Positions 10,329 through 27,685 of a stretch of DNA of 27,685 bases are shown here, in pieces; the first letter of the stretch is position 1; every line of letters starts with the position of its first letter. Made by a program: the position numbers and the translations under genes. Origin of the DNA: a virus; the IMG/VR virus record IMGVR_UViG_3300046808_001165, positions 1 through 27,685 of that record; one strand, 5' to 3'. The notes below the pieces were generated by a model. The model was not told the DNA's origin, did not search any database, and saw only the letters and a program-made list of their open reading frames with translations.

Positions 10329-11015
10329 ATGGCAAACTCTAAAGACAATATCGTCAATTCTCTAGTGCATGCTTCTGACAATCTTCCTGAACAATCTTTT
10401 ATATATTTCAAAGATATTAAAGAAGGAGACGAGCCTATAATTCCTCTACCTCCTGACCATATGGGAGATGTCACTTATCCTCAATTTATTGAGGTCAGAT
10501 GTGCTATATGTAGTTCTCACCTTCGCAACCTTGCAGAACACGTATATCTTGAAAGTGGTAAGAAACCTCAATCTGTCATTAAGTTTTTTGAAAGACACTT
10601 CAATGCAAGATTAAACTGGACTCAAGTTTCTACTCACATGGACCAACATTGTGACTTTAAGAAATTGATGACTTCAGGCCTTAAGAGCTACGAACAACAA
10701 GAAGAATTAATTGCCCCTTGGATATTCAGAGAAAACCAATTAGCCCTCACCGCATTAATGGTTGAACTTGATGATGTAAGAGGAATTGATTGTAGTAAAA
10801 ATAATGATCTAAAACTTAAAAGAGCTGCTATGGTTGAAAAACTTATCAGCAAGATTTTAGACATCAAAGAGAAAAGAGACAATCAGGGTGTTTTTTCAAT
10901 TAACATCTTTGAGATTTTAGCTGAATTGCACGACAGGTTTGACAGTGAGTTCGACAAGAGACTAATCAGAGACGAATTGAAAAAGCTAAGAGAAAAGCTT
11001 AAGCAAGAAAACTAA
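10329..11015 (+). CDS. Zinc/HTH protein, candidate small terminase subunit
   Basis: 228 aa. It sits directly before the large terminase with a one-base overlap (TAATG at 11013-11017), the usual position for the small subunit, which recognises phage DNA and regulates packaging. Residues 58-110 form a zinc-HTH unit: CAIC (C58, C61), then a helical stretch around QSVIKFFERHFNARLNWTQV, ending in STHMDQHCDF (H103, H107, C108). This recalls the CxxC...HTH...HxxxHC layout of short DNA-binding domains in terminase-like and transposase-like proteins. The C-terminal half (from about 170) is strongly helical and charged (DELKKLREKLKQEN), suitable for oligomerisation. The ATG has no SD; it follows an A/T-rich leader (ATTAATATG). 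The small-terminase call is inference from position and domain type. Confidence 0.6.
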   Translation: MANSKDNIVNSLVHASDNLPEQSFIYFKDIKEGDEPIIPLPPDHMGDVTYPQFIEVRCAICSSHLRNLAEHVYLESGKKPQSVIKFFERHFNARLNWTQVSTHMDQHCDFKKLMTSGLKSYEQQEELIAPWIFRENQLALTALMVELDDVRGIDCSKNNDLKLKRAAMVEKLISKILDIKEKRDNQGVFSINIFEILAELHDRFDSEFDKRLIRDELKKLREKLKQEN

Positions 11016-13141
11016 TGAGAAAAAACGCATCTAAAGCCACACTAACACAAGCTGAAATAAGACAGCAACTAATTCAACAAGCAAACCAAGCATCAGAAAA
11101 GTTTAAAGACTCTGAATATGCTGAAGAGTTTTTGGATGAGCTTGCCCCTAGTGTAAGATCTGAAGTTGCACCACCTCAAAAGCCAGAGAAAACAAGATTT
11201 AACCCTGATCAAATTGTAGATATTGTTACTTTTATTGAACATCCGTATTTCTGTAATTTAAGACCATATCCTTTACAGAGGCTTATTTTAAAGTGTTTCT
11301 ATATGGGTCAAGAAGGCAACACAGAGCTAACAATACAAGACATACCAGAAGAAGAAAGAGTTGGATGTAATGGATGTGTTTGGGATTTTGTAAGGAAGAA
11401 TGAAGAAAAGTCTGTTGAAATGCACAAACAAAACAGACCATTTAAAGCATCATTTACTGTTATTAATTCACCTTGTCTAACTTGTAATAGGATGGATCAA
11501 GATATTGCAGCACAGAGATACATCCACGAAAAAGATAATGCTACTAATCCCGATGCTCTTAAAACAATTGAGTTACTAGAAGAAAGACCAATTATAGACA
11601 ATTTCCAAACAGAAAAAGACTTGTTGTATTCTGAAGAGTTTGACCCAAAGCTTAGAATGCAAATTATCAACAAATGTGAAAATAGATTTAAGTTTCAAGA
11701 ATTAGTTTTAGTATTAGGAAGAAGATCTGGTAAGTCATTCCTAGTTTCTGCTATTGGACTTTATGAGCTATATAGGCTCATTTCTATGGGTCATCCTCAA
11801 GCTAGATATGGATTGATGGAGTTTGATGCAATATACCTATTAAACGTAGCTAAAAATGAAGAACAGGCAAAGAACGCTATCTTCGCTAAATTGAAACAAA
11901 CTGTATTAGCTTCGCCATATTTCCAGCCTTATATTGGTAAAGACACAGAACTTGAAATGCGATTCTTTACCGAAAATGACAGAAAAGAAAATGAAAGAAG
12001 AGAAAACGCAGGTCTCAATTTATTTTCTGGTTCATTAGTTCTTAAATGCGGATCTAGTAGTGCATCTGGTCTCGTTGGTCTTACTTGTTGGAGCGTAATC
12101 ATGGACGAAATCGCTGCTATGGCTGGCGATAATCCTGATTCTGGTCTTGACTATGATTTATATAATGATCTAAAGCCATCTCTTGCAACTTTTGGTCGTG
12201 ATGGAAAAATGATGATGCTTTCCAACCCTAAAGGACCAATTGGATTGCTTTATGATTTACATGAAAACAGACAAGACGATCCTTCCACTCTTGTTATGCG
12301 TGGACCTACTTGGCTTGTGAATCCTAATATTGACAGAGACTTCTTAGATTCTGAAAAGAAGAAGAATCCAACAGAATATCAAATGCAATATGGCGCAGAG
12401 TTTGGTGCTTCATCTTCCGACCCTATGTTTACAGAAGACGATATCAATAGATTTTTCTCAAGCATGTCAATGATCAAAAGAGCAGAAATGGGAACTGGAA
12501 TGTTTGAATACTACTGCCATATTGATCCAGCGAGAACATCTGACTACTATGCTTTAGCTGTAGCACATTGTGAGACTATGTATGGCAGTTTTGGTAAAGA
12601 TAACAAACCATTGAGAAGGGTTGTAATTGACCACATTCACTTTTGGAATCCTAAAACTAAAAATCAGCCAGTTTCAGAAAAAGATGTAGAAGATTATGTT
12701 TTAGCTCTACATGCAAAGTTCAGATTTAAGCAAGTAAGTATAGATCAATGGAACTCACAATCATCAGTCATCAAATTAAGAAACATGAGAGTGCCAATTA
12801 TAGAAAAAACATTTAACAAGAACTACAAAGAATCTATTTACACTGAACTTGCCACCTTATTAAGAGAAGACAGAATTGATATCTATGATTTATCAGGTGG
12901 AGAATATACAGACCTAAGAGGCAATAAAATGCCATTAGATGAAATCAAAGAAGCAAAAATACAATTCTTATTTTTACAAAAGAAATGGAAAGGCAATAGA
13001 TTTATTATCGAATCTTTAAAAGGATACAAGGATGATATTTGTGATGCTGTTGCTGCTGTAGCATACGAAGCCTATTTTTCTAAAATTGCCGAAGTTCTAC
13101 CAAGGTCAAGGACGATCAACTTGGGTGGAAGAATAAAATAA
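11015..13141 (+). CDS. terL: Terminase large subunit
   Basis: 708 aa packaging motor: N-terminal ATPase that pumps DNA into the prohead and C-terminal nuclease that cuts the concatemer. Walker A is GRRSGKS (235-241), Walker B is SVIMDEIAA (D364, E365), and the coupling block is MMLSNPKGP. The RNase H-like nuclease has its first Asp in CHIDPARTSD (D504), a second block VSIDQWNSQS, and a final acidic pair in YKDDICDAVAAVAYEAY. Unusual: about 230 residues precede Walker A, and they contain a probable zinc ribbon, C118-x2-C121 (CNGC) and C154-x2-C157 (CLTC). The protein is longer than typical terminases, mainly through this extension. No intein or intron signs are visible. It is the second gene of the head operon. 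Confidence 0.95.
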   Translation: MRKNASKATLTQAEIRQQLIQQANQASEKFKDSEYAEEFLDELAPSVRSEVAPPQKPEKTRFNPDQIVDIVTFIEHPYFCNLRPYPLQRLILKCFYMGQEGNTELTIQDIPEEERVGCNGCVWDFVRKNEEKSVEMHKQNRPFKASFTVINSPCLTCNRMDQDIAAQRYIHEKDNATNPDALKTIELLEERPIIDNFQTEKDLLYSEEFDPKLRMQIINKCENRFKFQELVLVLGRRSGKSFLVSAIGLYELYRLISMGHPQARYGLMEFDAIYLLNVAKNEEQAKNAIFAKLKQTVLASPYFQPYIGKDTELEMRFFTENDRKENERRENAGLNLFSGSLVLKCGSSSASGLVGLTCWSVIMDEIAAMAGDNPDSGLDYDLYNDLKPSLATFGRDGKMMMLSNPKGPIGLLYDLHENRQDDPSTLVMRGPTWLVNPNIDRDFLDSEKKKNPTEYQMQYGAEFGASSSDPMFTEDDINRFFSSMSMIKRAEMGTGMFEYYCHIDPARTSDYYALAVAHCETMYGSFGKDNKPLRRVVIDHIHFWNPKTKNQPVSEKDVEDYVLALHAKFRFKQVSIDQWNSQSSVIKLRNMRVPIIEKTFNKNYKESIYTELATLLREDRIDIYDLSGGEYTDLRGNKMPLDEIKEAKIQFLFLQKKWKGNRFIIESLKGYKDDICDAVAAVAYEAYFSKIAEVLPRSRTINLGGRIK

Positions 13142-13166
13142 TTATCCGTCTTTGAGGTTTCGCATA

Positions 13167-14120: not shown

Positions 14121-14129
14121 AATATAAAT

Positions 14130-15236: not shown

Positions 15237-15264
15237 ACGAGCTAAAAATTATAAAACAAAAATT

Positions 15265-15723
15265 ATGCATAAAAGTCAAATCATTAAATTGTTAAAGCTT
15301 GCAGATCGTTTTGACAGGTCTGGTAAGTATCGTGAGAGCGACAAAATTACAAACAATTTAACAAGACTAGCTCAATATTATGGCAACTTTGGTGTTAGCG
15401 ATACTGTTAACCGTATTGTTCCATATGATGACACTGCAGAAGATGTTGAAATTGATCAAAAAAGATTAGACAAACAAGATCGTTTTAGATCTCCAGAATA
15501 TAAAGAAGACGAAGCTTCAAATTACTTAGAATTTAATCTTGAAGCAAAATTACATGGACCTTCAGGAACAGGTATTGCATATGAAGATCCTGCTCCTGAA
15601 AGCAAAAACGTTGGGTTAGATGAAAATGTAGCCCATGGCGATTTGAGTGAATTTTTGTTTGAAAATACATATGAACAAAATGTTCAAGATGGCAAGGGTT
15701 ATCTTAATAGAAACCCAAGATAG
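15265..15723 (+). CDS. Unknown small head-operon protein (152 aa)
   Basis: Not recognised as a named family. The N-terminus is a helical hairpin, IKLLKLADRFDRSGKYRESD then KITNNLTRLAQYYG. It recalls the short KLADxLDxxGxxxEADxID motif that I have seen at the N-termini of other large-phage structural proteins (memory, not a search). The remainder is acidic and probably extended, with DNxNx-type turns and little hydrophobic core. The ATG has an A/T-rich leader and no SD. The next gene follows nine bases after the stop, with its own SD (GGAG). It is probably a minor virion or scaffold component by context; function unknown. Confidence 0.85.
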   Translation: MHKSQIIKLLKLADRFDRSGKYRESDKITNNLTRLAQYYGNFGVSDTVNRIVPYDDTAEDVEIDQKRLDKQDRFRSPEYKEDEASNYLEFNLEAKLHGPSGTGIAYEDPAPESKNVGLDENVAHGDLSEFLFENTYEQNVQDGKGYLNRNPR

Positions 15724-15732
15724 GAGAAAATT

Positions 15733-16209
15733 ATGCCTTTACCAATTCAATCTTTAAACAACTTACCTAATGACAATGACAATGTAGAAATGTCATCTTT
15801 AGGTTTATCTGATATTCAAATTCAGCTTTTGGGATTAAGCAGACCAACAAGAGAAGCAAAAGTTACCGTAAGCCAAAAAGATATTGATTTACTTAAGATT
15901 ATTGAAAAGAATCAAAATGATGTCGTAACTGCAGCTAATTTAGTAAGTGATATCAAAAACGCAAAGGTTTTCAATGTTCCTAGCAATATCGGTGATGGAG
16001 AACTTTTAGCACTTAAAACTGCTGGATTATTATCTGGTAGTGGAAGAGCAGTTTCTTTAACTGAAAAAGGAAGAGTTGCACTTAGAGATGCTTATTTGAA
16101 AGATCCTGTAAATGAGTTTAAAAAGGCCAGAAAGAAAGAAAAGTTTGATTTAGAAGAAGCAAAAAATGTCAAGGTTGCTTCCAAAAAATCAACTTTCAAA
16201 AAAGTATGA
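15733..16209 (+). CDS. Winged-helix protein (158 aa), stop UGA in frame with a DUF192 domain
   Basis: The start is ATG 15733 with SD TAGGAGA seven bases before. Residues about 40-115 look like a winged helix: DIDLLKIIEKNQNDVVTAAN (helices 1-2), then GDGELLALKTAGLLSGSGRA (recognition helix region) and the wing plus final helix VSLTEKGRVALRDAYL, very like MarR-type wings. It probably binds DNA or a protein partner. The C-terminal tail is basic (KKARKKEK, KKSTFKKV). The stop at 16207-16209 is UGA followed by C, and the same frame continues without another stop for 126 codons through a DUF192 domain. The protein may therefore be made both alone and as a fusion. An unusual gene type for a head operon. 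Confidence 0.85.
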   Translation: MPLPIQSLNNLPNDNDNVEMSSLGLSDIQIQLLGLSRPTREAKVTVSQKDIDLLKIIEKNQNDVVTAANLVSDIKNAKVFNVPSNIGDGELLALKTAGLLSGSGRAVSLTEKGRVALRDAYLKDPVNEFKKARKKEKFDLEEAKNVKVASKKSTFKKV

Positions 16210-16284
16210 CTCACTGATGATTTTAAAGGTGAGTTCACTTTAAGATTTGTTGCTAAAAACGAAAAAGAATTACAAAAGGGGTTA
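16207..16284 (+). other. In-frame UGA and protein-like segment joining wHTH and DUF192 frames
   Basis: After the UGA (16207-16209) the same frame reads LTDDFKGEFTLRFVAK, then NEKELQKGLMHSEPLEKY, which is the normal first strand and GLM block of DUF192. These residues precede the first available start (ATG 16285), and no ATG, GTG or TTG lies in frame between UGA and 16285. An ATG at 16206-16208 overlaps the UGA as ATGA, but its own frame ends after three codons; a one-base slip would join it to the DUF192 frame. Confidence 0.7.
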
Positions 16285-16587
16285 ATGCATTCTGAACCCT
16301 TGGAAAAATACGAAGTAGCTTACTTTGTGTTTCCATATAAAGGAATGCACTCTTTCTGGAATAAAAATGTCTCTTACCCATTAAGCTTAGCATTTTTAAA
16401 CAGTGATAATGAAATTGTTGATATCAAAGACTTAGAAGCTGAACAAACTGAAAGTGTAGCTCCAGATAGCAATTTTGTAAAATATGTAGTTGAAGCTAAT
16501 AAAGACACATTCAAAGAATTAGGTATCAAAGTCGGCGATAAATTAGAATACAAGGATAACAAAATAGTTTTCCGTAAAAGTAATTAA
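16285..16587 (+). CDS. DUF192 family protein (start uncertain, probably longer)
   Basis: 100 aa from ATG 16285. DUF192 is a small conserved beta-rich domain of unknown function, usually found as exported bacterial proteins. Matching blocks are YFVFPYKGMHSFWNKN (family pattern FVFPxxGxxSFWMKN), YPLSLAFLNSDNEIVDI, and FVKYVVEANKDTFKELGIKV ending GDKLEY. The N-terminal block (strand plus GLM) lies upstream of this ATG, after an in-frame UGA. The ATG has AAGGGG only three bases away, too close for good initiation. The real product is thus likely a UGA-readthrough fusion, a product from a frameshifted ATG 16206, or a gene broken by mutation or sequencing error. No signal peptide is visible in the readable part, unlike typical bacterial members. 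Confidence 0.7.
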   Translation: MHSEPLEKYEVAYFVFPYKGMHSFWNKNVSYPLSLAFLNSDNEIVDIKDLEAEQTESVAPDSNFVKYVVEANKDTFKELGIKVGDKLEYKDNKIVFRKSN

Positions 16588-16710
16588 TAATGCCTTAAAA
16601 GCAGGGTTAAACATTATTTTTATAGAACGTTTTTAGTAAGTATCAATTGCTTACTTAATTACATTCTAAAAAAAGATTAGAAGGATTGAACTTGAGGAGA
16701 AATTAAGATA
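16588..16710 (+). promoter_or_regulatory. Structured leader of the acidic protein gene
   Basis: This 123-base gap can fold into a two-tier hairpin. The inner stem is AGTAAG (16635-16640) / CTTACT (16650-16655), extendable by two pairs. The outer stem is TAGAA (16623-16627) / TTCTA (16664-16668). An SD, GAGGAG, follows near 16693-16698, about 12 bases before ATG 16711. No convincing promoter boxes were found. It may stabilise or process the mRNA of a likely abundant protein. Confidence 0.45.
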
Positions 16711-17670
16711 ATGGCAGATAGAATTTTCCCAAACAAGTTTCAAGAATCTGGATTGGATTCTGAACTTGTATTTACAGGCATCAACTGGGATGCATTTGGC
16801 CAAAGACTTGCCGCAATGGAAGAAGGCGAGGATTCAGAGAAGAAGAGTGATGTACCAGCTGAGCTTATGGAAGCTCTTCACAGCAAGTATGAATCACACT
16901 TTGATGAAATTGCTGAAGGTTCTGAAGAACCAGTAAATGCTAAGTGGGCAGCTGTAGACACTGACGAAGATACTGAAGATGAAGATGAAGATTCCGACGA
17001 AGATACAGAAGACGAAGATGATGATTCTGACGTTGACACTGACGAAGATGATGAAATGACAGAAGAATCTGAGATGAAGAAGAAAGCTTCAAAGATTATT
17101 TTCAATGATCCATCACAATTATCAGCAGAAGCAGTTGAAGCAGCTTTAGCATCTGGCAATACAAAATTAGCAAATACAATTCTCGCAGCAAGACATGAGA
17201 GAAGAGTAAGACTTGCTAACAAGATTGAAGATAACATCAAGACTGCACAAGCACATGATCTTAAGCTTGCACAAAGAAGAGCTTACAGAGAGAACCTTGT
17301 AAAGACTGCATCAAACAATGCAAAGAAAGCAACTACCAGAACTGCAAAGAATACTTCTGAGTTTGTCAAGGCTCAAGATTTAAACGCTTCTGCAAAGAAT
17401 GCATTTGCAGCTAAGGCAATTGCATCTGGCTTCCCAGCTGAATATGTAGAAGCTATGCTCAATACTCCAGTTGCAGAAGCACCTGCAGTAGCTGAAATCA
17501 AGCAAGTTATGGCTTCCAACTTGAATCCTAATGTCAAGAGAACAGTCGTTGCAAGTATGATCAAAGAATCTGAATTAGACTCAGCAAATATCAACAGATG
17601 CAAAGACTATTGGAAGAACGAACTCGGTTATGGCGACCCAGAATGGGTTGACGAGTTATTTAAAAACTAA
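16711..17670 (+). CDS. Acidic-domain head-operon protein (319 aa)
   Basis: Not recognised. Three parts are visible. Residues 1-82 begin MADRIFPNKFQESGLDSE and look partly folded. Residues 83-115 are almost all Asp/Glu with Thr and Ser. From about 125 on is a long Ala/Lys/Arg-rich, strongly helical region (AVEAALASGNTKLANTILAA, then DLKLAQRRAYRENLVKTAS) ending in a Trp-containing tail, YWKNELGYGDPEWVDELF. The acidic block plus a long helical region resembles phage scaffolding or internal head proteins. It holds several [KR]-T-A motifs (IKTAQ, VKTAS, TRTAK), consistent with proteolytic removal. The codon choice, structured leader and good SD suggest high expression. A GC-rich hairpin follows the gene. 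The scaffold role is inference. Confidence 0.9.
   Translation: MADRIFPNKFQESGLDSELVFTGINWDAFGQRLAAMEEGEDSEKKSDVPAELMEALHSKYESHFDEIAEGSEEPVNAKWAAVDTDEDTEDEDEDSDEDTEDEDDDSDVDTDEDDEMTEESEMKKKASKIIFNDPSQLSAEAVEAALASGNTKLANTILAARHERRVRLANKIEDNIKTAQAHDLKLAQRRAYRENLVKTASNNAKKATTRTAKNTSEFVKAQDLNASAKNAFAAKAIASGFPAEYVEAMLNTPVAEAPAVAEIKQVMASNLNPNVKRTVVASMIKESELDSANINRCKDYWKNELGYGDPEWVDELFKN
16957..17055 (+). repeat. Imperfect repeat encoding an Asp/Glu tract
   Basis: About 100 bases of near-repetitive GAC/GAA/GAT codons give the blocks DTDEDTEDEDEDS, DEDTEDEDDDS and DVDTDEDDE. Such tracts arise by slippage and expansion. In the protein it forms a highly negative linker between two domains. Confidence 0.7.
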
Positions 17671-17679
17671 TTACAAATC

Positions 17680-17727
17680 CTCAAGTTCAAATATCCCAGG
17701 GCGAAAGCCCTGGGATTAAGCCTTGAG
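17680..17727 (+). promoter_or_regulatory. Strong GC-rich hairpin between two head genes
   Basis: Perfect 10-bp stem ATCCCAGGGC (17693-17702) / GCCCTGGGAT (17707-17716) with a GAAA tetraloop, inside an outer 6-bp stem CTCAAG (17680-17685) / CTTGAG (17722-17727). No T-tract follows, so it is not a standard terminator. The SD of the next gene (AGGA, 17735-17738) lies just after it. It could protect the upstream mRNA 3' end, act as a processing site, or partly terminate. Confidence 0.75.
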
Positions 17728-17746
17728 AATGAATAGGATGCATAAA

Positions 17747-18559
17747 ATGAGCAAATTCAGAAAAGTTTCAGAAACAGAAAATATTCCATCATTTATTGAA
17801 AAGAAGTTCGTTGGCGCTAGTTATGAAGCTTTTGACGATCCATATGCTGAATTGAAGAATAATTCTACCGAAAACAGAATTAAGATTTCAAAACAAACAA
17901 TTGGAAATCAAAAAACAGCTGAGAACTTTACTAAGTCATGGGAAAAGATTCAAGGCGCTTCCGTTTATGAAGAGCCACAATACAATTTTAATAGAGAAGA
18001 GCTTACAGGCCTTAATTCTATTAGAAGAGCTGGATCTGATTTTGATGAAGGAATGAATGCCAGAACAACTACTTCAGGTTTAAAAGCATATTCTGCAGAT
18101 GAATACATGAATGCTATGCTCAGTAGAAGTGCTTCAATTTTTAACCCAGATATGATTGCACTTTCTGAAGAGTTTTTGAACAGCCAAGAATCAACAAGCC
18201 AACAAGCTATGGTTAACGAAGCTCAAAGAAGAGAAGCAAAAGCATCTAGACACAATTCATGGGAAGAAAAGCAACTCAACCAAATTAGAAAGTCTAGTGT
18301 AGTTTCAAATAGAGCACATTCAGTTTTAAGAACAGCTAATGAAGGACAATATTCTTCACAGTTTGGCATGATTGATGTTGATTCCCTTGACAATAGAGAA
18401 ACTCAAAGATTAGCCATGAATGAGAAGTCCAGAGAGCAAAGACTCGGACTTAAGAAAAACCACACTGAAGATCTTGAAAATAGAGCTGTTAATAAGGCTC
18501 AAACAATTCATGACATTTACAACAACATCAATATCAATTTAGATATCGATAAGATTTAA
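17747..18559 (+). CDS. Unknown head-operon protein (270 aa)
   Basis: Not recognised. ATG 17747 is chosen over 17723 (TTG), 17729 and 17738 (ATG) because AGGA (17735-17738) is spaced eight bases before it; 17723 lies inside the hairpin. The product is hydrophilic, rich in Ser, Asn, Glu and Arg, with predicted helices and no cysteine pair, signal or membrane segment. It contains LRTANEGQYSSQFG (one of the [KR]-T-A motifs) about two thirds along and QKTAENF near residue 55. The C-terminus (NKAQTIHDIYNNININLDID) is helical. The composition resembles phage internal or scaffold proteins. The next ATG comes one base after the stop. Confidence 0.87.
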   Translation: MSKFRKVSETENIPSFIEKKFVGASYEAFDDPYAELKNNSTENRIKISKQTIGNQKTAENFTKSWEKIQGASVYEEPQYNFNREELTGLNSIRRAGSDFDEGMNARTTTSGLKAYSADEYMNAMLSRSASIFNPDMIALSEEFLNSQESTSQQAMVNEAQRREAKASRHNSWEEKQLNQIRKSSVVSNRAHSVLRTANEGQYSSQFGMIDVDSLDNRETQRLAMNEKSREQRLGLKKNHTEDLENRAVNKAQTIHDIYNNININLDIDKI

Positions 18560-18560
18560 T

Positions 18561-19505
18561 ATGGATAAGAAATATTCTCTTTCTGGAATTGCATCAAATC
18601 CTGCTTCTGGCATCAACAATCTTGATTTAAGACAAGTTGGTGCAGATGGAAGTCAGGCAAATATGGGTGGTTCAGAAGGCGTTTCAATTAAAGAAATGGT
18701 CGCTGTTTTGGATAAGTTTTCAAACAACGAAGAGAATATGGATAATATCAAAACAGATTTAGAAGAGATTTTTCCAAGAGTTACAAGAAGTGAATATAAA
18801 AAAATGATTTCACAACTCATGAACTCTATTGAATATGCTAATGATCCAAAGAAGAGAAGTAAGAATCCATCAACTGGTAAATACGACCCAACTCCTCAAC
18901 AATTAGCATTAAGAATGAAAAATAAACTTAATCATATTAAAGAAGTAAATTCACAACAATCTCATACTGCAGGAAATAAAACAATGGCTTTCAATTTCAG
19001 ACAAGCGCAATATAAGAAAAAGAAAAAAACAAGAGGCAATCCTTTCCGTGTTTTGATGGGTAAAGTTGGAAAACTTTTAGATCATGGACTAGAAAAGAAA
19101 GATATTGTCAGATACTTAGCAAAGCAAAAGGTCTGGAATAACGAGACTGTTGAACGTGCTGTAGATATTGTAAGAGATTATAATAAGAAATTAAAAAGAG
19201 ATTCTGTAGACGAACCTAAAAAAGAAGAAACAAAGAAAGAAGAAACAAAAAAGTCTTCAACAGAATCCAATATTAAAACAGCTGGGTATGATTATGATAC
19301 TAAACCAGATCATGGAAAGAGATCAACCCCTGAACTAATTTCAAGAGCATATTTTTTAGATGATTTATTAGCTTACGGTAAAACAACTCCTCAAGGTGAT
19401 TTTAAAGAAGCTGCTAGTAAAGATGGTGCTAAAGAAGAACTCTCAAAAATTAAAACAGAATTGACTAAAAGAGGAATTGATCTTAAGGATTTAGATTTAG
19501 GGTAA
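18561..19505 (+). CDS. Unknown head-operon protein (314 aa)
   Basis: Not recognised. The ATG follows the previous stop by one base (TTTAATATG) with no clear SD, so it probably relies on coupling. Residues about 45-130 are helical. A basic patch KKKKKTRGN (about 153-161) precedes a compact helical block VLMGKVGKLLDHGLEKKDIV then RYLAKQKVWNNETVERAVDI, which looks like a small UBA- or HTH-like three-helix domain. A direct repeat KKEETKKEETKK lies in a charged linker (about 220-231), followed by NIKTAGYDYD (a K-T-A motif) and a C-terminal helical segment. Basic patches suggest DNA or capsid contact, for example an internal head protein; function unknown. Confidence 0.87.
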   Translation: MDKKYSLSGIASNPASGINNLDLRQVGADGSQANMGGSEGVSIKEMVAVLDKFSNNEENMDNIKTDLEEIFPRVTRSEYKKMISQLMNSIEYANDPKKRSKNPSTGKYDPTPQQLALRMKNKLNHIKEVNSQQSHTAGNKTMAFNFRQAQYKKKKKTRGNPFRVLMGKVGKLLDHGLEKKDIVRYLAKQKVWNNETVERAVDIVRDYNKKLKRDSVDEPKKEETKKEETKKSSTESNIKTAGYDYDTKPDHGKRSTPELISRAYFLDDLLAYGKTTPQGDFKEAASKDGAKEELSKIKTELTKRGIDLKDLDLG

Positions 19506-19511
19506 AGAATA

Positions 19512-21080
19512 ATGGAAAATAAAAATTACACAATAAAAATGAAACTTCACTCTCACAATCCTAAGACTGTTGGAAATCTTATCGGTGGAAATGGAATTAT
19601 GGAAATGCTCAATCAAATTATGAGCAAATTTTCACCAGTACACTCTATGCCTGAAACTCCATTCCACGATTTAGAAGATGGAGATTTTGATAAGTCCGAC
19701 CCAGTAGCTGAAAAGTTCCTTAATATGGGTGGGCCTAAGCATGTAATTAAAATCTTTAGAATCGATGTTCCTAAAGAAATGAAAGATGCTATCAAACATT
19801 TGGCAAGCACTCTTCATGAAACAAGAAGTGCATATATCAGAAAAGAATTAAGACATTTATTTGCATCAATTAACTGTGCATTAGGAAATGAAAACGACGC
19901 TTTTACAATGGAAAGAATCGCTAGTAATTTACCACAAAGATCTACAGGTTTATGGCAAGCAGAATCTATTGCAACTGTTGAAAAGCTTATGAAAGTTGCA
20001 AGTGTTAAAGAATATGAGATTCTTGAAAATGTAGACAAGATGCTCAGCACTGGTGGATATGCTCACATTGCTAACGCTTCAATTGCTGTTAAAAATATGT
20101 ACGAAGCATATTCAACCCCTAGAAACACAAGAATTGCTTACACAACATTAGCTACAACCGATGGTGAACCTATTTTGATGTGTCCTAAAGGCAAAGTAGA
20201 GTTTGGATCCGCTGTACCAATGGAAGCATCAAAATGTAGATGGAACTGCGTTGATTCCAGACTTGATGCTGATGGAAATGTAAGATGTAATTACGAAGCA
20301 TGGATGAAGCAAGCTTTCCAATCACATGATGTAGTAATGAGCAAGCTTGATACAACTAGACATCCAGATAATGAAGCCAATTCTATCAACATCAAAGATG
20401 GTGATAGAAAAACACATGAAGATGAAGTTGGCTATGAAAAGATGTTTGAAGACAGTGATCTTAAAGCAGCTAAATTGAGAAAAGAAGATAAAAATGTTGA
20501 TGACAGCATGGAAAAACAATTAGCTGACTTACCTGCAGTTGGATTTGGACACACTGTAGATGATAAGAAATTAAATAAGAGAACTGCACAATCAGATCAT
20601 TCAAAAACAATCGAAGATCAATTACCACATAAGGATGAGCAAAAGAAATCTTTGTTTGACATGCTCGTTGACAAATATAACAATAGAGTTAATTTAGAGA
20701 AAGAAATCGAAACCAACTTAGAAGAAAATGCTGGTCTTTACGATAGAAAAGAAGATGAATCAAAGTCTACTATTCAAAAAGTAAACGAAATGAAAGAAAA
20801 TCCTATCAATGTCTCTGAAGAAATTAACAAAGACGCTGGTGATGGAGATGATAAGAGCTTAGTAGATCATTTAAATAAGACAGCATCAAAAGAAGAAAAG
20901 ACATTTGATGAAACCCTTGAAGAAAAAAGAACTAACAAGAAAAATGACAAAACCATTGAAGAATTGTTAGCTGATGATAGTGAAAACTGGGGTCATCAAT
21001 TTTCTGATGATGATTTGAAAGAGTTTGCAAAAGAATTAGGATTGGATTACATTTTAGAAGAATCAAGAGACGAAGACTAA
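19512..21080 (+). CDS. Unknown large head-operon protein with Cys4 cluster and repeated KTxxExL motif (522 aa)
   Basis: Not recognised as a named family. The N-terminal part (residues 1-220) looks folded and helical. A likely metal-binding cluster follows: C224, C242, C246 and C259 (MCPKGK, KCRWNC, VRCNYEAW). I recall a similar CRxNCxDSRxDxDGxVxCxYxxW pattern beside portal genes of other large phages, without being able to search. Residues 365-486 are charged and probably disordered, with five copies of K[TS]-[ILF]-x-[DE]-x-L. KRTAQ and NKTAS occur in this tail. The protein ends in a helical segment FSDDDLKEFAKELGLDYIL. Its stop overlaps the next ATG. It probably acts in capsid assembly or DNA packaging; the repeats suggest several docking sites for one partner. 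Confidence 0.88.
   Translation: MENKNYTIKMKLHSHNPKTVGNLIGGNGIMEMLNQIMSKFSPVHSMPETPFHDLEDGDFDKSDPVAEKFLNMGGPKHVIKIFRIDVPKEMKDAIKHLASTLHETRSAYIRKELRHLFASINCALGNENDAFTMERIASNLPQRSTGLWQAESIATVEKLMKVASVKEYEILENVDKMLSTGGYAHIANASIAVKNMYEAYSTPRNTRIAYTTLATTDGEPILMCPKGKVEFGSAVPMEASKCRWNCVDSRLDADGNVRCNYEAWMKQAFQSHDVVMSKLDTTRHPDNEANSINIKDGDRKTHEDEVGYEKMFEDSDLKAAKLRKEDKNVDDSMEKQLADLPAVGFGHTVDDKKLNKRTAQSDHSKTIEDQLPHKDEQKKSLFDMLVDKYNNRVNLEKEIETNLEENAGLYDRKEDESKSTIQKVNEMKENPINVSEEINKDAGDGDDKSLVDHLNKTASKEEKTFDETLEEKRTNKKNDKTIEELLADDSENWGHQFSDDDLKEFAKELGLDYILEESRDED
20604..20970 (+). repeat. Five degenerate copies of a short protein motif
   Basis: Encoded heptads KTIEDQL (365-371), KSLFDML (379-385), KSLVDHL (448-454), KTFDETL (463-469) and KTIEELL (480-486) share K-[TS]-[ILF]-x-[DE]-x-L. 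The DNA is not strictly repeated, so the conservation appears to be at protein level. Confidence 0.6.
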
Positions 21081-21586
21081 TGTGGTACCGATTTAAAAAA
21101 GCTAACATTGGAGGAGGGGCTATAAAGTCCACTCCTCTTTTGCCTGTATCATCTGAAGGTATAGAAAATATTAATCAGATCAAAGACTCACCTGAGTTCA
21201 AGAATTATGATGAATTAAATGAAGATTTATTAAACATACTTGATGAAATGGGACAAACTCTTGATGATTACTATGAACTTTCTAGAGATCAACAAAAAGA
21301 ATTGTGGGAAATTATGATTAATAGACCTCACCAAGTTGTTGACCAAGAAGCATCAAGATTGAACAGATTAAAATCTCCTTTTCATGAAAATATTATTCCT
21401 ACAGAATTAGCACTTGAACCATCTAGAGAATCATCAGTAGAAGTAGAACCAGTCAATATGCAATCTACAGAAGCTGGTAATGGTATTTTATTGCAAACTG
21501 GATTGAGTAATTCTTCATTTTTTCAACAAGGACAGAGCGGAGCAGCTTTTAAAGGCGACGCACCATCAGCAAGAACATTAATTTAG
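21080..21586 (+). CDS. Unknown protein upstream of portal (168 aa)
   Basis: Not recognised. The ATG overlaps the previous stop (TAATG at 21078-21082), so translation is probably coupled. The N-terminus MWYRFKKANIGGGAIKS is basic and Gly-rich; then comes an acidic helical core (PEFKNYDELNEDLLNILDEM, then DDYYELSRDQQKELWEIMIN), and a long Ser/Gln/Gly-rich, probably disordered C-terminal tail ending SARTLI. No cysteine pair or membrane helix is visible. Its place directly before the portal fits a small head-assembly or portal-associated protein. The 33-base gap to the portal has no SD but an A/T-rich sequence. Confidence 0.85.
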   Translation: MWYRFKKANIGGGAIKSTPLLPVSSEGIENINQIKDSPEFKNYDELNEDLLNILDEMGQTLDDYYELSRDQQKELWEIMINRPHQVVDQEASRLNRLKSPFHENIIPTELALEPSRESSVEVEPVNMQSTEAGNGILLQTGLSNSSFFQQGQSGAAFKGDAPSARTLI

Positions 21587-21619
21587 TAATTTCTAACTAT
21601 ATGTGGGTATAAATATAAT

Positions 21620-23992
21620 ATGAGTTCAAAGAATGCACCTACATTAGCAAACGTTTTAAAAACCGCAGCGCAAAATGTAACAGGAGAAAGAGTAGCGTCA
21701 GTTGATTATTCTGGTCAATATGCTACTTCTAGAATTACAACAGGTTTAGGACCGTCAGTTAATTCTAAAACATCACAATACGGTGGTAATAATGCAATGA
21801 CCACCGCACCTAACTTTTATTCTCCTTTCTTAACTCCTACCTCATTCCAAATCCCTAATGCTCGCCGTGAAGTATACCTATGGGCTAACTGGTGGAGAAA
21901 CAATGAGCCTAAAATTGCTGCAGCCATCAACTTCTATACAAACTACCCCTTCTCTGGTTGGAAGCTTGAGTGTTCTTCTTCATATGTAAAAGATTATTTC
22001 GAAAAATTAATCGAAAAATTAAACTTTCAAAAATGGCTTCCAGAAATCTCCAAAGTTTACCATTTACTAGGTGATGCATTTGTTCTTTTATCTCTTGACT
22101 GTGAGCATTGTCATGGTTCTAACTGGGATGAAGAAAAGAACGAAGTTTGTAAGCATGATGGTGCAACTTGGAAATCAGTATGTTTATTGAATCCTGATAG
22201 TGTTCTTAAATCACCAGCAATGATTGATCAAACTGGAATGTATACATATAAACCATCTCCAGAAGAAATCAAAATTGTAAATGAAAGACAACCAAGAGAA
22301 TACTATGATGCGATTCCTGATAATGTAAAGAAATTGATTTTGAAAGGAGATCCAATTCCACTTTCACCAATTTCAATTCATCACTTTAAGCACGGATCAA
22401 ACCCATGGGAAGATTATGGAACACCTTTAATTCGCCCATTATTTCCAACATTAGCATACAAGGATAAATTAAGACAGTCTCAATGGATTGTTGCTGAAAG
22501 ACACATCCTTCCTGTTAAAGTTGTGAAAGTTGGTAATGATCAAAGACCAGCATCACAAGAAGACTTAGATTCTGTACAGGACGAACTTGCTGCATTTGCA
22601 AACGACCCTAACCTTACTCTTGTTACTCACCATGCATTTGACTTTGATTATGTTGGTGCTTCTGGAAAAGTATTACAGCTTACCAATGAATACGAACTAA
22701 TTGATCAAGAGATTTTAGACGGTGTAATGCTTAATAAGGCTCTTCTTAATGGTGAAGGTCCAACTTATGGAAATGCTCAAGTTGGTCTTCTTGCAATGGC
22801 TCAAAGATTAGAGACATTTAGAAGAGAAGTTGCAAGATGGGTTGAACAATGTGTATTTAAGCCTGTAGCTGAGTGGAATGGCTTTACAATTGAAGGCGAA
22901 AGAGGGCAAGAAGAAATTATCTTCCCTACAATTAAGTTTGACGATCTTCAATTAAGAGATGACACTGGAAAGCTTCAAATGCTTGTTACAGCAAACTCAA
23001 ATGGTGTTATTTCCAACATGACACTTATTGAAGCATTTGGTTTAGATCCAGACCAAGAAATCGAAAGATTAAGATTTGAGCAAGGTTCAAACTTTGTTCA
23101 AAACCCTGCCTTTGGAAATATTGACGTAAATAATGGCTTCCAATCAGGTGATGTAACAGGTCAAGGATTTGGAGCAGATATGGGTATGGGTTCTCCTGGG
23201 ATGGGAATGACTCCACCTCCACCTGCTGGCATGGGTATGCCTCCAGGCGGTGGTGGCGGTATGCCAGGAATGCCTATGGCTAATAATTATTTACAAAACT
23301 ATAGACTTGCTTCTTCAATTATCAATGATCTTTATTTTGAGAATATTGAGAATAACAGCAGCCTAATTAATGTAAGAGTTGCAAATAGAAGATTCAAATC
23401 AGCAGCACATGAAGGTTTTGTAAGAAGTTTATCCCCTGTTTCTGGCCGTGGTAGATTAGGCTCTTTACCTGAGAATTATGATGGTTTTGGCGGAGTTTTA
23501 TCACCACAACCTTTCGGTGGTCCATATGTAAAAGCCTTGAATCCTTATGCAGAGTATGAGCAATATACTTTTGCAAACAATGAAGAGACCAAGACTGTTT
23601 ATGCTGCAAAGAAAGTTGAAAGACCACCAGCGCAAATGTTTACCTCAATTGAAAAGAAATTATATGGTCTTTTGCTTTCCATCAATTTGCCTTATCCTTT
23701 GTATGCTCAATATTCAGCTGGTCCTACAATGGATTATCAATTAGACGCTGCTATTCCAACATTGCAAATTGGTGTAGAAGCTGATGGAGAAATCTGGCAC
23801 AACAATCCAGATAAAATTGCTAAAGATAAAAGAAGAGATATTGAATTAGCATCAAATGGTTGGATTATTTTAAGGTTTACAGATAAGGAACTTGCTGATC
23901 ACCCACAAGATGTTTTAAATGTTGTGATGCAAGCTATCAGAAAAAAGACTGGTAAGAAAGAATCTCAAAACCCAGACGAAATCAAGCTTTAA
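21620..23992 (+). CDS. Portal protein fused to a DUF559/Vsr-like nuclease domain
   Basis: 790 aa. Residues about 60-470 are a portal protein, the dodecameric ring at the head vertex through which DNA enters: REVYLWANWWRNNEPKIAAA, KVYHLLGDAFVLLSLD, VCLLNPDSV, and the stem/wing region with LIRPLFPTLAYKDKLRQSQW and EILDGVMLNKALLNGEGPT. A zinc-knuckle-like insert has C161, C164, C177 and H179. A Gly/Met/Pro-rich linker spans about 516-553. The C-terminus (about 675-780) matches the DUF559/Vsr-type PD-(D/E)XK fold: LDAAIP (D709), GVEADGEIWH (E720, D722, H727), KDKRRD (735-740) and GWIILRF (747-753), with candidate catalytic residues in place. The frame is continuous. The ATG has no SD. The linker and K-T-A site (LKTAAQ near the N-terminus) may allow processing. 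The portal call is firm; the nuclease call is strong by pattern. Confidence 0.9.
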   Translation: MSSKNAPTLANVLKTAAQNVTGERVASVDYSGQYATSRITTGLGPSVNSKTSQYGGNNAMTTAPNFYSPFLTPTSFQIPNARREVYLWANWWRNNEPKIAAAINFYTNYPFSGWKLECSSSYVKDYFEKLIEKLNFQKWLPEISKVYHLLGDAFVLLSLDCEHCHGSNWDEEKNEVCKHDGATWKSVCLLNPDSVLKSPAMIDQTGMYTYKPSPEEIKIVNERQPREYYDAIPDNVKKLILKGDPIPLSPISIHHFKHGSNPWEDYGTPLIRPLFPTLAYKDKLRQSQWIVAERHILPVKVVKVGNDQRPASQEDLDSVQDELAAFANDPNLTLVTHHAFDFDYVGASGKVLQLTNEYELIDQEILDGVMLNKALLNGEGPTYGNAQVGLLAMAQRLETFRREVARWVEQCVFKPVAEWNGFTIEGERGQEEIIFPTIKFDDLQLRDDTGKLQMLVTANSNGVISNMTLIEAFGLDPDQEIERLRFEQGSNFVQNPAFGNIDVNNGFQSGDVTGQGFGADMGMGSPGMGMTPPPPAGMGMPPGGGGGMPGMPMANNYLQNYRLASSIINDLYFENIENNSSLINVRVANRRFKSAAHEGFVRSLSPVSGRGRLGSLPENYDGFGGVLSPQPFGGPYVKALNPYAEYEQYTFANNEETKTVYAAKKVERPPAQMFTSIEKKLYGLLLSINLPYPLYAQYSAGPTMDYQLDAAIPTLQIGVEADGEIWHNNPDKIAKDKRRDIELASNGWIILRFTDKELADHPQDVLNVVMQAIRKKTGKKESQNPDEIKL

Positions 23993-24010
23993 TCCACTTC
24001 TAATGTGTAC

Positions 24011-24038
24011 AAAAAACCTATCGTTATCGATAGGTTTT
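24011..24038 (+). terminator. Intrinsic terminator after the portal gene
   Basis: CCTATCG (24017-24023), loop TTAT, CGATAGG (24028-24034), with an A-tract before (24011-24016) and TTTT after. It ends the head operon's first transcript, so the protease gene likely has its own promoter or depends on readthrough. I could not identify promoter boxes in 24040-24097. Confidence 0.88.
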
Positions 24039-24097
24039 CTTGTTTAAACAGGACTTTTAAACATTTATCGAGAACACAAACAAGAGTAAATGTCTAA

Positions 24098-24127
24098 AAT
24101 TGTTTCAGCATTAAACAATTGCAGGAG
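24098..24127 (+). promoter_or_regulatory. Leader hairpin with adjacent SD before the protease gene
   Basis: Perfect 8-bp stem AATTGTTT (24098-24105) / AAACAATT (24113-24120), loop CAGCATT, immediately followed by the SD GCAGGAG (24121-24127). The ATG is at 24140, 12 bases after the SD. A hairpin just upstream of an SD can stabilise mRNA and expose the site. Confidence 0.6.
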
Positions 24128-24139
24128 AAAATTTTATTT

Positions 24140-27100
24140 ATGTATAGAGTAGCAAAAGGTGGACCTATAACAATTAATAGTTTCCTCACCGAACAAGACA
24201 GAAATACTGCAAGAGAACATATGCTTAAAACTGCTTCTAAACAAATGAGAGAGGCTGCTAAAATAGGTTTACAATCTTTATATGCAGACCCAACAGAAGT
24301 TTTAGAAAAATATAAAGATTTCGATATCGTAAAAGAAATGAAAGCTCGTAAGGACGCTAAACTCCTTTGGGTAAGAGCTAGATCCATTGATGCAGATACA
24401 GTAAATCACAATGGAGATTATTTTTCGAAAGCTGAACTATTAAAAGAAGTTGAAGTTAAGGGCGAGAAAATCCCAGCTTATAAAACATTCGAAGGTGTGC
24501 CAATTTACACAAACCATAAGAATGATGATATTGAGCAAGCTAAAGGCATGGTTGTATATGCTGAATGGGATGAATCAGAAAATTGTGTTTATTGTACTTT
24601 CTTTGTAGATGAAGAAGCTTATCCTGATATTGCTAGAAACATTAGAACAGGTGTAATTCACGATGTCTCTATGGGATGTTCTGTAGCATATGGTATTTGT
24701 TCTAAGTGTGGGAATAAAGCATACACAGAAAAAGAATATTGTTCCTGTCTTAAAAAATGGAAGGGCAAGAAAGAAAATGGCTCAGGAAAAGTTATCTACG
24801 AAGAGAACTATGATTTAAAGTTTATTGAGCTTTCCTGTGTTGGTGATGGCGCTTTTGATGCATGTGAAATCAAAGAAATATATGATGTTGACGATATTTT
24901 GAATGCTGCCACTGACGCTGAAAAGAAAGCATCAGAATTAATTTCAAATATAGTCATAGCTCAACAAGGCGCTCCATCAGATCCAATTTACAGACAAGAA
25001 TATGAAGAGTGTTTAAGAGTAGCAGAAACAACCACTAGAACTGCTTTAAGATTAGCTCAAAATGCGGGTACTTTAATCGGTGGTCAATTAATGGCTGGCG
25101 AAGGTGCTGGTCAAAATGCTACTGTTCAAGCTGTTTTGGGTGCGTTAGGTATTGACCCAAGATCAGGACTTAATATCCTCGATCTTATTAATTTATCATT
25201 GAACTTCTTGGAAGTTGCTGTGATGAATATGTTTGCACGTAAAGACAATGTTGATTTAGCTCACGTAGGCAAAATCACTAAATCAATGGCAGATCTTCAA
25301 TCAACAATGCAAGACATGATTGACGATGGAATTGATGTTGGAGCAGCTCAAGGTCAACAAGCCTTAAACCAACAACAATTGCAACAACAGCCACAACAAC
25401 AACAAGCCCAGCCTGCAGCTAATACAGCTCCTGCTAATTATATGCCTGCTGGAAATGTTGGAAGAATGATTGAACCAGCATTATTTACTGGTCAACCTCA
25501 AGGAATTGGAGGAGCTGTTGCATTAGCTTCTTCAAATCATAATCTTGTTTGGGCATCGAAAGATGGTAGAAGAGAAGTCTTTGCCAGCACATCAACTCAG
25601 CCTAAAGATAATTCATTTATAAAATTATCTAAAGGCTTGGTTCAATTAAAGGAAGCTTTGTCAGATAATACAGCAATTGCTTCTGTTACTCAAAACGTTA
25701 TTAGAGTTGCTAATGAACGAAACAAAAATATTAGAAACAATACGCCCCATTCTCTTAGGGCGGAGGGAAATAATCAAATGGATCATTTTGCTAAGATAGC
25801 GTCTGAACAACGCAAAAAATTAGCAGCCGCCGTTACAATCGATTTCAAGGTTGAGGATGGTGCTGGTAATCGTGTAGTTCTTTCAACAGATGGTTCTATT
25901 ACCGGATTCACAAATGGTAGTAGATCAAACTGGGAACCAATTCTTTCTGAACAACAACTTTCCGCAATGGAGAGTGGACAAGGTGCTAGAGTTGCAGCAG
26001 ATCTTCTTAAAGATTTTGTAAAGACTGCAATTAAAGCTCCTCACATGGATAAAGATGTTAAGGAAGTTGAACTTAAGGGTGAAAGAAAAGGCGTTCCTTA
26101 TAAAGTATTAGCTGATGGAGTTGCAACAATGCATGCAGATCCTCATGCTGATAAGACTAGAGAAGAATCTTTAGAGTCTTTAAGAAAAGACAATGCAGAG
26201 TATGGCGAAGAAGCGTTGACTTCAGCTGGTCTCTATGGTCATAAAGTAAATGACGATGATGTTAAAGAATCTTTGGCTGAATTAGTTGCACAAGCTAACA
26301 AGGGCGTTTCTGAAGAAGGTTTAAACGAAAGAATTGATTGTTGCAGAGCTGAAGGTTCCGCTCCTGCGCATGAAGTTATGGTTCACACAGTAGATGCACT
26401 CACCCATGCTGTAGTTGCTTCTTACTCCACTCCTTCTGAAATTGTTGAAGCTGCTACCAAGCTTGCTAATGAAGAACTTTTACCAGAATTGATTGCAACT
26501 GCTTCTGCAGGAACAGATGTTCGTGTAAAGCTTGCATCAAAGGCTGATTTCTTTAAGACTGAAAGAGTTTCCAGCTCACCTTTAACAGCTGTTCTCGAAT
26601 CACTTGGTGATAGAGTTTCCAAGTCTGTAACAGCAGGTGATCTTGCTGAAGCATTGAGAGTTGCAGCAAGCGAAACTGAATATACAATTGAAACTGTTAC
26701 TAAGGGTGCTGAATTAAGAATGGCACAAGCTAAAGGCACAACTTCAGAAGCAAAAGCTAAGATTTCAAAGTCCGAAGAACTTAGAACTGCTTTGAGAGGC
26801 AATGTTACTGGCGATGCTCTTATTTCAAAGAATGACCTTAAATCTGTAATTTCTGCTATGGCAATGGCTGCAGAAGAAACAGCAAGCACACCAGAAGATG
26901 TTGCTTCAGCTATTGAAATCGAAGATGAAGGCCACTTAATTGCTGAAGTTAATAAGGCTAGAACTGCATCAGCAACAAATGCAAGATTGAAATCAAGAGC
27001 CAGAAGAGAGTTCTGGGGCGAAAGAGTTGCTTCCAAAACTGACCTTTCAAGTAATGTAATTGGATGGTTGGCTGATTATGCAACTAACTTTGACCTTTCT

Positions 27101-27685
27101 ACAAAATCAATTGTAACTGCTGCTAAGAAGCTTGTTTCTGATGGTGAATTAGCTGAGAGATTGATTGTTAAGGCTATCGAAACAAAGCAAAATGCAGAAA
27201 GAACTGCAGCAATGCAAGTTACTCATGAAACATCCGATTCTATCAGATTTGTATGTAGAACAGAAGATCTTGATGGTTTAAAGCCAAATGATGAGGGATT
27301 TGAAGATGCTTTCAGACAAAAGGCAATGGAAGTTCTTCAAGGTAATGGATTTACAGTAGATCCAAATACTTTCTCATTCACAGATCTCAATGTATCAGCA
27401 TATGGTGATATTACAGCCACTGTTTCATCAAGAACATCCAAGACATTCTCTGCTCAAAGTGCACCTGAAGTTCCTACTGTTGGAACTGAAATTGGTCCTG
27501 AAGAAATGGGCGAAGCTCCTGTTGTTATGACAGAAGAAGCAAGAATGGCTAGAAATGAAAGAAGAAGCAGAATCTTAAGCAGATTTGCACAAATGGCTGC
27601 TCCTGGTGGTGGAATGGGAGCCGGAATGGGCGCTCCAGCTGCTCCTGATATGGGCATGGATGCTGGTGCATTTGGTGGACCTGGT
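24140..27685 (+). CDS. Prohead maturation protease joined in frame to a long structural region (partial at right edge)
   Basis: At least 1182 codons, with no stop from ATG 24140 to the window end; I checked the frame line by line. Residues about 70-270 are a prohead protease: LLWVRARSIDADTVNHNGDY, VPIYTNHKND (candidate catalytic H126) and GVIHDVSMGCSV (S177), then a zinc-knuckle insert C187, C190, C201, C203 typical of large-phage members. Next come a helical region (about 290-400) and a Gln-rich linker (about 405-429). From about residue 547 the sequence is helical, Ala/Glu/Lys-rich and scaffold-like, with several [KR]-T-A motifs, ending at the edge in a Gly/Met/Ala-rich stretch. An internal hairpin, SD and ATG at 25743-25780 suggest a second product. 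The protease would cut head proteins during maturation. Confidence 0.92.
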   Translation, partial: MYRVAKGGPITINSFLTEQDRNTAREHMLKTASKQMREAAKIGLQSLYADPTEVLEKYKDFDIVKEMKARKDAKLLWVRARSIDADTVNHNGDYFSKAELLKEVEVKGEKIPAYKTFEGVPIYTNHKNDDIEQAKGMVVYAEWDESENCVYCTFFVDEEAYPDIARNIRTGVIHDVSMGCSVAYGICSKCGNKAYTEKEYCSCLKKWKGKKENGSGKVIYEENYDLKFIELSCVGDGAFDACEIKEIYDVDDILNAATDAEKKASELISNIVIAQQGAPSDPIYRQEYEECLRVAETTTRTALRLAQNAGTLIGGQLMAGEGAGQNATVQAVLGALGIDPRSGLNILDLINLSLNFLEVAVMNMFARKDNVDLAHVGKITKSMADLQSTMQDMIDDGIDVGAAQGQQALNQQQLQQQPQQQQAQPAANTAPANYMPAGNVGRMIEPALFTGQPQGIGGAVALASSNHNLVWASKDGRREVFASTSTQPKDNSFIKLSKGLVQLKEALSDNTAIASVTQNVIRVANERNKNIRNNTPHSLRAEGNNQMDHFAKIASEQRKKLAAAVTIDFKVEDGAGNRVVLSTDGSITGFTNGSRSNWEPILSEQQLSAMESGQGARVAADLLKDFVKTAIKAPHMDKDVKEVELKGERKGVPYKVLADGVATMHADPHADKTREESLESLRKDNAEYGEEALTSAGLYGHKVNDDDVKESLAELVAQANKGVSEEGLNERIDCCRAEGSAPAHEVMVHTVDALTHAVVASYSTPSEIVEAATKLANEELLPELIATASAGTDVRVKLASKADFFKTERVSSSPLTAVLESLGDRVSKSVTAGDLAEALRVAASETEYTIETVTKGAELRMAQAKGTTSEAKAKISKSEELRTALRGNVTGDALISKNDLKSVISAMAMAAEETASTPEDVASAIEIEDEGHLIAEVNKARTASATNARLKSRARREFWGERVASKTDLSSNVIGWLADYATNFDLSTKSIVTAAKKLVSDGELAERLIVKAIETKQNAERTAAMQVTHETSDSIRFVCRTEDLDGLKPNDEGFEDAFRQKAMEVLQGNGFTVDPNTFSFTDLNVSAYGDITATVSSRTSKTFSAQSAPEVPTVGTEIGPEEMGEAPVVMTEEARMARNERRSRILSRFAQMAAPGGGMGAGMGAPAAPDMGMDAGAFGGPG
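25743..25780 (+). promoter_or_regulatory. Internal hairpin, strong SD and in-frame ATG
   Basis: CGCCC (25743-25747) / GGGCG (25758-25762) hairpin, then GGAGGG (25762-25767) and, after ten bases, ATG (25778-25780) in the frame of the surrounding ORF. G-rich runs like this are rare in this AT-rich DNA. The hairpin partly overlaps the SD, so initiation may be regulated. Confidence 0.55.
25778..27685 (+). CDS. Putative separate C-terminal product from internal start (scaffold-like)
   Basis: Same frame as the protease ORF. If ribosomes start at 25778, the product begins MDHFAKIASEQRKKLAAAVT and runs at least 636 codons off the right edge. The region is rich in Ala, Glu, Lys and Ser and predicted mostly helical, with few aromatic residues, as in scaffolding proteins. 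It contains VKTAI, ARTAS, LRTAL and ERTAA, which could be cut when the head matures. Phage lambda offers a precedent: its scaffold Nu3 is made from an internal in-frame start in the protease gene C. Here the evidence is the hairpin and SD plus a compositional change; expression itself is not shown. Confidence 0.5.
   Translation, partial: MDHFAKIASEQRKKLAAAVTIDFKVEDGAGNRVVLSTDGSITGFTNGSRSNWEPILSEQQLSAMESGQGARVAADLLKDFVKTAIKAPHMDKDVKEVELKGERKGVPYKVLADGVATMHADPHADKTREESLESLRKDNAEYGEEALTSAGLYGHKVNDDDVKESLAELVAQANKGVSEEGLNERIDCCRAEGSAPAHEVMVHTVDALTHAVVASYSTPSEIVEAATKLANEELLPELIATASAGTDVRVKLASKADFFKTERVSSSPLTAVLESLGDRVSKSVTAGDLAEALRVAASETEYTIETVTKGAELRMAQAKGTTSEAKAKISKSEELRTALRGNVTGDALISKNDLKSVISAMAMAAEETASTPEDVASAIEIEDEGHLIAEVNKARTASATNARLKSRARREFWGERVASKTDLSSNVIGWLADYATNFDLSTKSIVTAAKKLVSDGELAERLIVKAIETKQNAERTAAMQVTHETSDSIRFVCRTEDLDGLKPNDEGFEDAFRQKAMEVLQGNGFTVDPNTFSFTDLNVSAYGDITATVSSRTSKTFSAQSAPEVPTVGTEIGPEEMGEAPVVMTEEARMARNERRSRILSRFAQMAAPGGGMGAGMGAPAAPDMGMDAGAFGGPG

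Follow-up and report, generated by a model that had tools for sequence, protein, structure and literature searches.

A portal protein fused to a DUF559-type nuclease domain in a lineage of uncultured giant phages

Portals are generally regarded as passive rings and sensors, and DNA cutting is assigned to the terminase. Headful cutting by the terminase takes place outside the capsid, and resolvases likewise act outside. For phage T4, two further nucleases have been placed in this context, i.e., the head-completion nuclease gp4 (PMC7824862) and endonuclease VII, which associates with the portal gp20 (PMC10893049). Portal and MuF proteins fused to Nudix, 2H or ADP-ribosyltransferase (ART) domains are proposed to be packaged in the head and injected (PMC9503650). 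With regard to portal architecture, it is the crown that lies farthest inside in T4, SPP1 and P22 (PMC4493910), and the C-terminal crown of the T7 portal lies inside the capsid, where it touches core proteins (PMC6702177).

The window analyzed here is the whole stretch of 27,685 nucleotides (positions 1 to 27,685) of the IMG/VR virus record IMGVR_UViG_3300046808_001165. One of its frames runs from ATG to stop without interruption and joins a portal to a nuclease domain; its parts and the neighboring genes discussed below are listed in Table 1. A preliminary description, made from the letters alone, had read this single frame as a portal, a Gly/Met/Pro linker and a PD-(D/E)XK domain. Profiles and structure models bear this out and place the portal at residues ~60-490 and the linker at ~491-556. 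Taken as one joint claim, we hold with high confidence that the frame encodes a portal-nuclease protein with an intact catalytic site.

Table 1. Features of the window that bear on the portal-nuclease fusion (residue numbers refer to the fusion protein).
Feature	Position	Strand	Evidence and remarks
Portal-nuclease fusion gene	21620..23992	+	790 aa; open frame, portal and DUF559 profile matches
Portal core, residues 60-490, ending in crown-like helices at ~449-494	21797..23089	+	PHROG and Pfam portal matches; model superposes on many solved portals (residues ~76-446)
Linker rich in Gly, Met and Pro (residues 491-560; disorder predicted)	23090..23299	+	pLDDT about 30; sequence
Variable segment (residues 561-670) that holds the candidate protease motifs R562-LAS, R586-VAN and K593-SAA	23300..23629	+	Low conservation; [KR]xA[SAGN] kept in 56/56 main-clade fusions
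DUF559/PD-(D/E)XK nuclease domain, residues 674-775	23639..23944	+	DUF559 profile, predicted fold, invariant E678, D709, E720, D722, H727, D736 and R739
Large terminase; its ATPase and nuclease motifs are conserved (HIDPA, DQWN, KDDICDA)	11015..13141	+	phrog_2, E 2.4e-27; alignment of 58 relatives
Prohead protease with long scaffold-like extension, adjoining the fusion gene and running off the window	24119..27685	+	phrog_18299 head maturation protease, E 3.4e-17

The locus resembles each of the closest described systems in part. The nearest annotated cultured portal, gp14 of Bacillus phage G, shares 32% identity over residues 55-495 and then continues into a Pro/Gly-rich tail, but none of the portals fetched for the clade of gp14 and its IMG/VR relatives carries the nuclease domain. 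DUF559 proteins such as 3hrl from Neisseria show the same fold, the D...ExDG...H motif and the DxxR and GW..LRF-type blocks; as a rule they stand alone or are joined to helicases and the like, whereas the domain is fused to a virion portal here. The EDxHD homing endonuclease I-Bth0305I and the Vsr endonuclease share the catalytic fold but differ in that the present domain belongs to a structural protein, occurs in single copy and is inherited vertically, without mobility. Like the MuF and portal-effector fusions, the protein joins an enzyme to a head-portal protein; unlike them, it carries a nuclease of one unvarying type and no detected MuF domain. T4 gp4 and portal-bound endonuclease VII are comparable as non-terminase nucleases at the portal vertex, yet both are separate, unfused proteins acting on packaging, and gp4 is of a TnsA-like kind.

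The portal half has its best PHROG portal match in phrog_16240 (E 3.6e-39, residues 51-426) and also matches Portal_Mu (PF06074) with 41.3 bits at a cut-off of 23.9. A full-length AlphaFold2 model superposes on many solved portals over residues ~76-446 with Z-scores up to 18.5, and sequence profiles point to the SPbeta portal YonE as its nearest relative of solved structure. That is, both fold and family profiles identify the fusion protein as a Caudoviricetes portal protein. The linker starts directly after the crown-like helices. No MuF domain was matched on the protein by PHROG and Pfam profiles, and the nuclease type is identical in all fused members with no exchangeable toxin domains, i.e., the protein does not behave as a MuF-type polymorphic toxin. 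As side observations on the portal core, residues 161-179 (window positions 22100-22156) form an invariant, zinc-ribbon-like CxxC...CxH loop, and the core of many divergent fused portals is interrupted by one to three intein-like insertions (L135:1998-6368, L136:218-5194 and several of L206, L207, L210 and L307-L324).

The C-terminal part matches DUF559 (PF04480) over residues 702-773 with 30.7 bits (curated cut-off 20.6). A model of residues 560-778 built from 19 relatives reaches a modest mean pLDDT of 67.9, with values mostly between 77 and 91 in the nuclease part. It superposes on the DUF559 protein 3hrl with a Z-score of 11.5 (rmsd 1.9 over 93/94 residues), on I-Bth0305I (3r3p) with 11.1 and on Vsr with 9.0; 3hrl and 3r3p are also recovered by sequence profiles. 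The likeness to Vsr is one of fold only, given that the Vsr profile TIGR00632 scores 14.0 bits, below its cut-off of 97.85. The domain thus shows the PD-(D/E)XK-like fold that the preliminary description had expected, with the conserved D, ExDG, H and DxxR residues of DUF559, and the match to 3r3p likewise gives it the catalytic-domain fold of EDxHD homing endonucleases.

The conservation of the putative active site is strict. E678, Q697, D709, E720, D722, H727, D736, R739, D740, G747, W748 and R752 are unchanged in 53 distinct domains. Nor do the same acidic, histidine, DxxRD and GW..R positions vary among 39 divergent fusions, some of them with intein-interrupted portals. The catalytic residues are kept even where the portals are only about half identical. 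The candidate residues D709, E720, D722 and H727 and the KDKRRD and GWIILRF blocks named beforehand are all in place, none of the active residues is lost in any homologue, and E678 adds a further invariant acidic position to that set. The domain would, in our reading, be an active nuclease or nickase.

Scanning IMG/VR with the whole protein, its C-terminal part and the portal core yielded 63 distinct fused frames, and a scan with a distant member about 17 further fusions. Its carriers are giant phages, a sizeable group that is so far uncultured. In all eight long records (166-479 kb) exactly one DUF559 domain scores above the cut-off, always in the portal frame. Portal frames of the lineage without the nuclease all stop at a contig end, except for a close relative (L048) in which a single in-frame TGA (7678-7680) lies between linker and nuclease; readthrough, a natural split and a sequencing error are possible readings. 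This TGA, which parts the two halves, is the one observation in favor of an assembly or annotation artefact that joined two separate genes. Such an artefact is ruled out for practical purposes by the identical fused frame in dozens of independent metagenome contigs, where the fusion was found when sought in related phages. None of the annotated or cultured phages searched has the fusion, no relatives of the portal were found in bacterial genomes, and among the matches listed for plasmids there are only free DUF559 proteins. No description of a portal-DUF559 fusion was found in the literature either, in accordance with the earlier remark that a portal-nuclease fusion of this kind is not known to have been described.

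The portal tree unites the fused proteins in one group, which a single change of state explains (support 97/98). The nuclease domain is lacking in Bacillus phage G and in nine contigs related to it; the unfused portals of Tunturi_5 and Rctr197k sit on long branches, and their placement on the tree is uncertain. Portal and nuclease distances are strongly correlated (Mantel r 0.86, with 0/2000 permutations as high). Pairwise dN/dS of the nuclease ranges from 0.01 to 0.13, which is similar to the portal core, and the segment between the two is laxer. The nuclease has therefore been inherited vertically after a single gain and is under strong purifying selection. Separately, one phage G-like portal of 1016 aa (L296:3995-7042) has a C-terminal extension of another kind.

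We also considered the other DNA-cutting and DNA-modifying enzymes of these phages. Since the nuclease motifs of the large terminase are conserved among its relatives, the portal-borne domain is a second, extra enzyme, and the idea that it replaces a lost terminase nuclease is rejected. When six long records were searched for junction resolvases, RusA-like matches were obtained in five (only two of them above the cut-off) and an Endo VII-like match in one, i.e., at least one kind in each, while RuvC and Hjc gave no matches; the Pox_A22 profile matched nothing anywhere, which carries no weight. The replacement of a missing resolvase is thus not supported, and a debranching role of the portal nuclease is weakened. 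Methylase matches occur in only 2/6 records, which does not support uniform DNA methylation for self-protection. Amid the head genes, the window also holds a UDP-galactopyranose mutase-like gene (14130-15236).

With regard to a possible release of the nuclease, we examined the motif [KR]xA[SAGN]. It is enriched in the head-region proteins of the window (13152-27685) and occurs 446 times in relatives of the protease/scaffold protein compared to about 111 expected (59 sequences, which are related and not independent). As the motif was picked after being seen in these same proteins, its enrichment is no independent test. Between linker and nuclease it is present in all 56 main-clade fusions and absent from the seven divergent fusions tested. 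We regard it as a candidate cleavage site of the prohead protease in the main subclade. Release of the nuclease by this protease is plausible, given the protease gene next door and the conservation of the candidate motifs in that subclade. For a free nuclease translated from internal ATGs, weak upstream motifs were seen at linker residues 521, 523 and 553 and none at M673; several gene starts of the window likewise lack such a motif.

Because the nuclease follows the crown, which is internal in known portals, the domain is most likely located within the head; by this analogy, we consider a position inside the capsid probable. The expected position makes a headful cut unlikely and favors an internal nuclease that could exit with the DNA. 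The initial suggestion of headful cutting is therefore disfavored, as the terminase, with its conserved nuclease motifs, cuts outside. Our best overall explanation, to which we assign a probability of about 0.5, is a tethered intra-capsid portal endonuclease that is perhaps freed by the protease and ejected with the DNA. That is, past the C-terminal crown a long and flexible tether would connect every portal subunit to a metal-dependent DUF559-type endonuclease of its own, such that twelve subunits would present about twelve nuclease domains in the head around the exit channel. In the main subclade, the neighboring prohead protease may free the nuclease at [KR]xA[SAG] motifs during head maturation. 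At infection, the nuclease would leave the head with or just before the DNA and act on DNA in the new host. This last step is modeled on the crown-docked core proteins of T7 and on the MuF- and portal-fused enzymes of other phages, which are thought to do likewise; ejection with the phage genome is our first choice of function, if a tentative one.

Several observations do not sit easily with ejection. Injected effectors are often variable or exchanged, yet the domain type is constant here and tracks the portal tree, which a housekeeping role fits at least equally well. The candidate protease motif is missing from the linker of the divergent fusions tested. Moreover, the phage genome would share the head with this nuclease, which calls for specificity, modification or inhibition; no uniform protective methylase was found in the six records searched. 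The main rival is accordingly a packaging or genome-end nuclease that works on phage DNA while it is being packaged or afterwards, by trimming, nicking or debranching. It draws on the domain being universal in the clade, vertically inherited and strongly constrained, and on the T4 precedents of gp4 and gp20-bound Endo VII. The expected post-crown position in the head, as opposed to terminase and resolvases acting outside, speaks against it, as do the intact terminase nuclease and the resolvase match in each long record, so that we consider this role rather unlikely, if worth keeping in view. Clearly less probable is an action before the head closes, e.g., on host or competing DNA near the assembly sites, with subsequent removal of the domain by the prohead protease: the adjoining protease gene and the conserved candidate sites would suit it in the main clade, but not in the divergent members that lack the motif.

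Two readings of the domain remain. Its attachment to a DNA-handling ring would also suit a DNA-binding or structural module, e.g., one that holds on to the end of the packaged DNA. We find this improbable, since binding alone would not require what is seen here, i.e., no change at any metal-binding or catalytic-type residue even between very diverged sequences. Even less credit is due to the remnant of a selfish homing endonuclease that became trapped at the portal gene, although I-Bth0305I is among the nearest solved structures: the domain was gained once, is present in all complete members with no loss, co-evolves with the portal, and shows neither a partner insertion nor the mobile, sporadic distribution of such elements.

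Compared to these rivals, the tethered intra-capsid endonuclease stays our preferred reading. In a broader sense, the machine that packages and ejects DNA in a whole lineage of huge phages might include the nuclease as an integral second component for cutting DNA, which would act within the head on the end of the genome or on DNA that enters and leaves; we consider this a doubtful generalization at this point. To our knowledge, no described portal has such a role. A portal that has always been accompanied by an intact nuclease since the origin of the lineage implies that DNA has to be cut within the head of these phages or next to it. This also makes testable whether huge phages bring a nuclease into the cell on their portal, and how the packaged genome survives its presence.
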